In this document: piece by piece, positions 440-4,536 of the stretch
How positions within the stretch are numbered: the stretch's first letter is position 1
Layout: each line of letters begins with the position of its first letter
Origin: Candidatus Mnemosynella biddleae
Lineage (GTDB): Archaea > Halobacteriota > Archaeoglobi > Mnemosynellales > Mnemosynellaceae
Assembly: GCA_002011165.2 (NCBI GenBank)
Contig: MTMI02000003.1
Location: 1-64,000, forward strand
DNA length: 64,000 nt
Reading direction: 5' to 3'
Translations under genes and position numbers: made by a program
Notes under the pieces: generated by a model
Databases searched by the model: none
What the model was told of the DNA's origin: nothing
Seen by the model: only the letters and a program-made list of their open reading frames with translations

Positions 440-516
440 GATGTCTGCAACCAGGGAACCGAACCTTCATCCCGGGGAATTTCTCCCCAATCAGGTTTCT
501 GCCGGCTGGTTGCAGA
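440..516 (-). ncRNA. Candidate box H/ACA-like structured RNA in 16S leader
   Basis: Minus strand TCTGCAACCAG-CCGGCAGA-AACCTGATT-GGGGAGAAATTCCCC-GGGATGAAGGTT-CGGTTCC-CTGGTTGCAGACA: 11-bp basal stem, internal loop, 5-bp stem, CTGA/GATGA K-turn-like motif, apical stem, ACA directly after the basal stem. Confidence 0.35.
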
Positions 517-3276: not shown

Positions 3277-4536
3277 ATGAACTTAGATGAAGAGGTTCTA
3301 GCAAGAGCGGAAAGAATCATAAGAGAAGGATATATCTGTGATAGATGTCTCGGTAGACAGTTTTCAACGGTGATTGAAGCGAAAAATAACAAACAGAGGG
3401 GTAAAATTATAAAAGATGCTTTGAGAGAGAGGGGAGTTGAAGTCCGAGAAGATGGAACTTGTTGGATATGTTTGGATTTTTTTGAGGAACTTGACAAATG
3501 GATTAAAAAAGTCGGTGAGGAGTTTCGAGAAATAGAATTCTCAACTTTTCTTGTAGGTTCACGACTTCCTCCAGAAATTCTCGAAAGTGAAGAACTTTTA
3601 TGGGAGAAATATGGAGCAGAATGGTCAGAATCAATAAAATTAGAAGTGAATAGAGAAATTGGGAGAGAAATTGCAAGTCTCTTGAAGAAGAAAGTTGATT
3701 TTTCAAGACCTGATGTCGTAGCAATTGTTGATGTTGAAAAAGGAGAAGTTGAGCTTCAGATAAGGTCTCTATATCTCGGAGGAAGATACAGAAAGCTCAT
3801 CAGAGGAATACCACAAACTCATTGGCCATGTGGTAAATGCAAAGGAAGAGGATGTGAAGAGTGTGAGTGGAGTGGAAAGCAGTATAAGGAGAGTGTAGAG
3901 GAGCTTATAGGAGAGCCTCTCCTGAAGCTCACAGAAGGAAAAAAAGCTATCCTTCACGGGGCGGGACGAGAGGATATAGATGCTCGGATGCTCGGCTCTG
4001 GAAGGCCGTTCGTTATCGAAATAAAAGAGCCTCGAAGAAGATTTCTTGACTTAAAAAAACTCGAAGAGGAAATAAACAAATTTGCTGAAGGAAAAATTGA
4101 AGTTGAAGGTCTAACTCAGGTTTCTTTAGATTTTGTCCAGCTGATCAAAGAGATGAGACACGATAAAACTTACAGAGTGAGAGTCAGTTTTGAATCCGAA
4201 GTATCGCATGAGAAATTGAGAGAAGCTCTGGAAAAGCTCAGTGGAGTGGTTGTAAAGCAGAGAACACCAAAAAGAGTGACCCATAGAAGAGCGGATAAAA
4301 TCAGGGAAAGAAAGGTTTATAAAGTCTCACTTCTCTCTTTTGATACAAGAGAGGCGACTCTCGAAATAAAGTGCGAAAGCGGGCTTTATGTAAAAGAGCT
4401 GATTTCCGGAGATGATGGGAGGACTGTTCCTAACCTCTCATCTCTGCTCTCAATTCCCGCTAAAGTATTAGAATTGGATGTAATTGATGCAGGGGGATTG
4501 AAATGGCAAAACATCATGGAGTGCAGAAAAAGGTAA
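3277..4536 (+). CDS. pus10: tRNA pseudouridine synthase Pus10
   Basis: N-terminal CDRCLGR, CGKCKGRGCEEC, and catalytic-domain motif GSGRPFVIEIKEPRRR. Confidence 0.9.
   Translation: MNLDEEVLARAERIIREGYICDRCLGRQFSTVIEAKNNKQRGKIIKDALRERGVEVREDGTCWICLDFFEELDKWIKKVGEEFREIEFSTFLVGSRLPPEILESEELLWEKYGAEWSESIKLEVNREIGREIASLLKKKVDFSRPDVVAIVDVEKGEVELQIRSLYLGGRYRKLIRGIPQTHWPCGKCKGRGCEECEWSGKQYKESVEELIGEPLLKLTEGKKAILHGAGREDIDARMLGSGRPFVIEIKEPRRRFLDLKKLEEEINKFAEGKIEVEGLTQVSLDFVQLIKEMRHDKTYRVRVSFESEVSHEKLREALEKLSGVVVKQRTPKRVTHRRADKIRERKVYKVSLLSFDTREATLEIKCESGLYVKELISGDDGRTVPNLSSLLSIPAKVLELDVIDAGGLKWQNIMECRKR

Follow-up and report, generated by a model that had tools for sequence, protein, structure and literature searches.

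Guides for pseudouridylation are known as separate genes or as passengers of introns, and among the archaeal ones HgcG (Pab40) is an established multi-hairpin box H/ACA sRNA. The guide in the archaeal pre-tRNA-Trp intron is of the box C/D class and directs 2′-O-methylation. In yeast, snR35 is the guide for the pseudouridine that becomes m1acp3Psi in helix 31 of the 18S rRNA. The archaeal box H/ACA sRNAs considered here (Pab40/HgcG, RF00064; Af4, Af46, and Af190) share a lower stem of ~9 bp, a pocket, an upper stem with a K-turn, and an A-N-A box 14–15 nt away. The productive archaeal folds, designated ‘10/5/9’ and ‘10/6/9’, combine a 9-bp lower stem, a 3′ guide of 5–6 nt, an A-N-A box at 14–15 nt, and a K-turn in the upper stem (Toffano-Nioche et al., PMC4652768). 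The use of the archaeal pre-tRNA-Trp intron as a box C/D guide has been documented (PMC2584109), and U3-like cis sequences have been described in the 5′ ETS (Dennis et al. 1997, as summarized in PMC3608112).

Here we describe a hairpin in the 16S rRNA 5′ leader that we judge, with good confidence, to be a conserved pseudouridylation guide of the archaeal box H/ACA type. It has the lower stem, K-turn, and A-N-A spacing of the sRNAs named above and a putative pocket, but it is embedded in the 16S leader whereas they are separate genes, and unlike HgcG it belongs to no Rfam family at the gathering threshold. Helix 31 of the 16S rRNA, the target predicted for it, is absent from the A. fulgidus sites listed in PMC4652768. 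Like the pre-tRNA-Trp guide, it is carried by the precursor of its own predicted target, but it is of the H/ACA rather than the C/D class, with a predicted pseudouridine in place of 2′-O-methylation and a pre-rRNA in place of a tRNA intron. To snR35, a separate eukaryotic snoRNA, it can be likened by target alone, the same nucleotide being predicted for it. With the U3-like sequences, as PMC3608112 summarizes them, it has in common a leader segment that pairs with 16S rRNA; theirs is the pairing of the 16S 5′-end pseudoknot, whereas the present element has the H/ACA shape and helix 31 as its predicted target. Our search of the openly accessible literature found no paper describing an H/ACA element in a 16S leader, and the element is apparently a box H/ACA in an unreported genomic position with its predicted target in its own precursor.

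The window (the whole 64-kb stretch of DNA analysed) carries the 5′ part of the 16S rRNA at positions 1–335 of the minus strand (RF01959 match), truncated there because C3, a contig of a 1.5-Mb genome, ends. The 16S 5′ end lies at ~335 (−), and the putative box H/ACA hairpin spans 442–516 (−), ~106 nt 5′ of it; from the lower stem to the ACA box (442–515), the element is defined by the fold, the alignment of relatives, and a model match. The two 11-nt arms, TCTGCAACCAG (516–506) and CTGGTTGCAGA (454–444), CCGGCAGA, AACCT/AGGTT, CTGAT opposite GATGA, GGGGA/TCCCC, and ACA (444–442) are all found on the minus strand, as an earlier note on this DNA had described them.

The lower stem is a perfect 9-bp helix between CTGCAACCA (507–515) and TGGTTGCAG (445–453), with one extra pair on either side, in keeping with the 7–9 bp of archaeal box H/ACA guides; both strands are read directly and covary in relatives. 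The 5′ guide strand GCCGGC (501–506) contains CC[G/A]GC, which is invariant in Archaeoglobi and complementary to GC[C/U]GG of 16S helix 31. The 3′ guide strand GTTCCC (454–459) is placed by comparison with relatives, with TTCCC 14 nt 5′ of the ACA box (442–444), itself both read directly and seen in relatives. In the upper (GA) stem, AACCT (493–497) pairs with AGGTT (462–466), again by direct reading and covariation. The earlier note had taken the opposed CTGA and GATGA as a K-turn. A K-turn is indeed present, but its exact layout is 5′-AACCU-GA-UUGGGG/CCCCGG-GAU-GA-AGGUU, in which tandem G·A pairs adjoin the AACCU/AGGUU stem and GAU forms a 3-nt bulge. The GA of the 5′ strand (491–492) is conserved, as is the (A)UGA within the GAU plus GA of the 3′ strand (467–471), and the apical stem-loop UUGGGGAGAAAUUCCCCGG (472–490; from reading and fold) forms the C stem of the K-turn. 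Archaeal box H/ACA guides have a GA stem of 10 stacked layers; here the lengths are compatible with 9–10 layers, those at the pocket being non-canonical. A box C/D sRNA, with C, D′, C′, and D boxes and an antisense segment upstream of D or D′, was considered and rejected: CUGA and GAUGA lie within one hairpin as an H/ACA K-turn, and neither the lower stem nor the pocket nor A-N-A resembles the C/D class.

The hairpin folds with −36.1 kcal/mol, compared with −22.7 ± 3.4 kcal/mol for 200 dinucleotide shuffles (z = −3.97), none of which folds as low; the entire 16S leader folds moderately better than its shuffles (z = −1.84). Covariance model R1, which was built from leaders of other genera only, the window genus being excluded, has a sole match in the 64-kb window, at 444–513 (−), with 30.6 bits and an E-value of 1.6e-5. 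The covariance search proposed in the earlier note is thus positive with the leader-built model but not with Rfam, as the H/ACA models including HgcG (RF00064) give nothing over the gathering score in the window leader. With an E-value threshold in place of the gathering score, the best Rfam match, to H19_2, is below gathering (23.4 bits) and was judged spurious.

The element is present in all 47 Archaeoglobi leaders read, and a model search of the class finds it in 49 of 59 genomes, the remaining ten likewise being without an assembled 16S 5′ end. The common layout in the class is a 9-bp lower stem, CC[G/A]GC, a GA stem of ~8 nt, GA, an apical hairpin, (A)UGA, 7–8 nt, a 6-nt 3′ pocket (mostly GUUCCC), 9 nt, and A-N-A. 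In an alignment of 37 sequences with the window genus left out, 95.7% of the cells pair, and the compensatory changes envisaged in the earlier note are seen as double changes in 12 of the 17 pairs (55 double-change cells, versus 15.2 ± 2.8 shuffled and 3–10 in slid controls). A wider set of 44 sequences from more families has double changes in 16 of the 17 pairs (116 cells versus 27.8 shuffled), figures biased towards structure by an alignment fitted to the model.

Searched with model R2, the phylum has the element in 88 of its 397 genomes, some second matches being HgcG. Outside Archaeoglobi, it occurs in at least five families (f7, f21, f26, f31, and f34), 82–207 nt 5′ of the 16S rRNA wherever the 16S start is readable, and genome G127 has it ahead of both rRNA operons. 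Three f21 leaders (L183, L187, and L191) have a short K-loop form with an altered 5′ guide (GGCUGCG/GGCUACG), possibly reflecting retargeting or decay. The R2 search of a second phylum gave no match; four of its leaders carry an H/ACA-like hairpin with the 5′ guide GGCGUU, two spotted by eye (L105 and L121) and two by a geometry descriptor (L205 and L206) that missed L105 and L121 and matched 0 of 200 shuffled controls. Two archaeal rRNA contigs filed under Hydrogenophilus and Tissierellaceae labels (L107 and L128) are probably mis-binned MAG contigs.

Conserved across families with covarying stems, the hairpin is genuine. The whole-leader z-score is what a chance inverted repeat in a GC-rich leader would have in its favour, but conservation, covariation across families, and the z-score of the hairpin itself oppose it; the comparative data refute this reading, and we give it practically no weight.

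Both As of the A-N-A box are kept in 47 of 47 Archaeoglobi leaders, a count for which the parse demanded A-N-A and in which the alignment shows the box in the same column. The middle base is U, A, C, or G, so that the 3′ ACA of the earlier note holds for the window, but the conserved box is A-N-A and not strictly ACA. Outside Archaeoglobi, A-N-A is found in 31 of 32 distinct leaders. UUCC(C) is conserved 14–15 nt ahead of the box, and the K-turn consensus, GA opposite a 3-nt bulge plus GA, is seen by sequence in the window and nearly all relatives. In both its UUCC spacing and its 9-bp lower stem, the element agrees with the productive folds ‘10/5/9’ and ‘10/6/9’. The upper stem had earlier been placed ~17 nt from ACA, slightly beyond the usual distance; relatives place the 3′ pocket GUUCCC (459–454) 15 nt, and UUCCC 14 nt, before ACA, and this objection therefore falls away.

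In addition, the leader-only model R1 also matches HgcG (RF00064, Pab40) loci in six Archaeoglobi genomes. The window genome has its own HgcG elsewhere (C3:305185–305451), and it encodes Cbf5. Leader conservation, covariation, A-N-A spacing, the K-turn, and the recovery of HgcG together support the H/ACA architecture originally proposed for this 16S leader. A further R1 match away from 16S, at 304–376 (−) of L098 (G051:C8), is H/ACA-like with no Rfam match and probably represents a divergent HgcG motif 3. A 419-aa ORF at 3277–4536 (+) of the window, with a CxxC motif and a weak match to the Cbf5 model, resembles Pus10, a tRNA pseudouridine synthase.

The guides of the relatives suggest a single uridine at the ribosome decoding site as the target, U966 (E. 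coli numbering; ~925 in A. fulgidus), a hypermodified P-site residue. Outside Archaeoglobi, CCGGCGU is the usual 5′ guide; the 7-mer complementary to it, ACGCCGG of 16S helix 31, has one occurrence in the rRNAs tested (L145 and L117). GGA/UGGA is matched by the 3′ guide UUCC(R), located at −14, and the 14-nt rule therefore points to U966. Among 200 homologous 16S sites, U966 comes out best for 17 non-Archaeoglobi leaders, with 0 of 100 permuted guides as good. In the second phylum, under strictly canonical geometry, U966 ranks first of 1054 (L105) and 713 (L121) uridines; L205 retains the 5′ arm alone for pairing with helix 31. As a positive control, the scoring puts the 23S target of HgcG motif 3 first of 684.

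In Archaeoglobi alone, U966 comes fifth of 200 sites, and 41 of 100 permuted guides are as good as the best site. In the assembly of the window genome, the contig end truncates the 16S rRNA, and the 23S rRNA is represented by its 3′ part alone (C3 and C7), and the organism's own helix 31 is therefore missing; when the window guide is scored against the rRNA of relatives, helix 31 ranks 38th–43rd of ~1,100–1,300 uridines. The pairing of Archaeoglobi guides with helix 31 comprises ~5 bp plus 3 bp, with an A·C mismatch, a U·U at n−1, and extra unpaired target residues, and such features have been reported as unfavourable (PMC4652768). In the unbound RNA, the pocket bases are able to pair together, and this pairing shows covariation. 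In genus g14, CCGGC of the guide and GCCGG of helix 31 have changed together to CCAGC and GCUGG, a single event in which helix 31's own base pair changed at the same step. U966 is a putative target in Archaeoglobi, where the case for it consists of homology and the one g14 co-change and the predicted pairing is weaker than outside the class; we infer it for the window genus.

That a true H/ACA guide of Archaeoglobi, including the window genus, targets another uridine while the relatives use U966 would fit the higher scores of other 16S sites and a pocket unlike the CCGGCGU found elsewhere. However, no alternative site is consistently good over Archaeoglobi, the guide and helix 31 co-changed in g14, and nearly all these genomes have Nep1 or Tsr3, enzymes of position 966; we consider such a switch of target unlikely. 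Sites at 16S ~1472 and ~595 (A. fulgidus numbering) were rejected as less consistent than helix 31 across all lineages. The target form GGAACCG-U-N-UCUGCCGG suggested in the earlier note has no good canonical site with the family pocket in three relatives, and U966 in helix 31 is the better candidate. The weak helix 31 pairing in Archaeoglobi and the degeneration of the 5′ guide in certain f21 genera (L183, L187, and L191) might also be read as decay, the element being a fossil guide retained merely as leader structure. This alternative, raised from the start, is very unlikely, as both structure and guide sequences have been conserved: covariation is strong, and the pocket and A-N-A residues are near-invariant.

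Nep1 methylates pseudouridine 966 and requires the pseudouridine, and this P-site methylation is conserved up to humans. Nep1 is encoded in 62 of the 397 genomes of the phylum, comprising nearly all Archaeoglobi of families f2 and f3 plus eight others. The leader element is present in all eight of these non-Archaeoglobi genomes, which are not independent because they belong to three genera of one family. Tsr3 is encoded in the window genome (C7:278514–278876). Nep1 and Tsr3 are mutually exclusive in Archaeoglobi, the window genus having Tsr3 without Nep1 and the other genera Nep1 without Tsr3. At the position of U966, S. solfataricus has m1acp3Psi930 (PMC11698992), Haloferax has acp3U (PMC2584109), and the archaea listed for Nep1 have m1Psi914 (PMC9508554).

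Between the element and the 16S rRNA lies a processing stem formed by leader and trailer, as seen in A. fulgidus, where it has a clear bulge-helix-bulge, and in two relatives. The hairpin might accordingly be a cis-acting L7Ae/K-turn structure for folding or processing of the pre-rRNA, U3- or snR30-like, that is H/ACA-shaped but guides no modification. Its position adjoining the processing stem, its pocket complementary to helix 31, compatible with a chaperone role, and the precedent of eukaryotic snR30, an H/ACA RNA serving processing (PMC7991803), all speak for this reading. We nevertheless regard it as improbable, since the A-N-A box and its 14–15-nt spacing persist although a site for L7Ae alone could do without them, the fit to a uridine modified in other archaea is fully canonical, and the element is associated with Nep1.

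If the element is a modification guide, its K-turn, early in each rRNA transcript, would be the binding site of L7Ae, and the lower stem and A-N-A box would be occupied by Cbf5 together with Nop10 and Gar1. Base pairing of the pocket to the two strands of 16S helix 31 would position U966 for isomerisation, and further groups would be added later by Nep1 or Tsr3. As the element lies 5′ of the processing stem in relatives, excision of the pre-16S rRNA would leave the guide on the excised leader; before excision it could act in cis on its own transcript, and afterwards, on leader or ligated leader–trailer RNA, in trans. RNP assembly, activity, and action in cis or trans are inferred. We tentatively propose, at somewhat less than even confidence, that the pre-16S 5′ leader contains a built-in H/ACA guide in archaea from two or more phyla, each transcript bringing its own U966 guide, loaded at the start of transcription and acting in cis, which would couple helix 31 pseudouridylation to synthesis and processing. 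A guide in the precursor of its own target, conserved across archaeal families, would make modification stoichiometric and co-transcriptional, it would be a likely source of the P-site pseudouridine methylated by Nep1, and it would supply an entry missing from the list of A. fulgidus guides.

Two other pairings of the leader were rejected. The 3′ arm of the hairpin has CCCUGGUUG in common with the 16S start, and a U3-like pairing to the 5′ end of the 16S rRNA was considered, but the similarity is confined to the window genus (L002 and L003), the lower-stem sequence differing elsewhere. The complementarity of CUGAUUGGGGAG (483–494, −) to CUCCCCAAUUAG (337–348, −) just 5′ of the 16S rRNA, 12 bp with one G·U, is absent even from the sister species L003. 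A second leader hairpin, GGGGACGG...CCGTCC (409–436, −), begins with GG[A/G]GAC and is kept at the same place in most other leaders, 5′ of the processing stem in relatives. On the plus strand, two neighbouring ORFs at 808–1429 of the window (79 and 123 aa) resemble one frameshifted gene.
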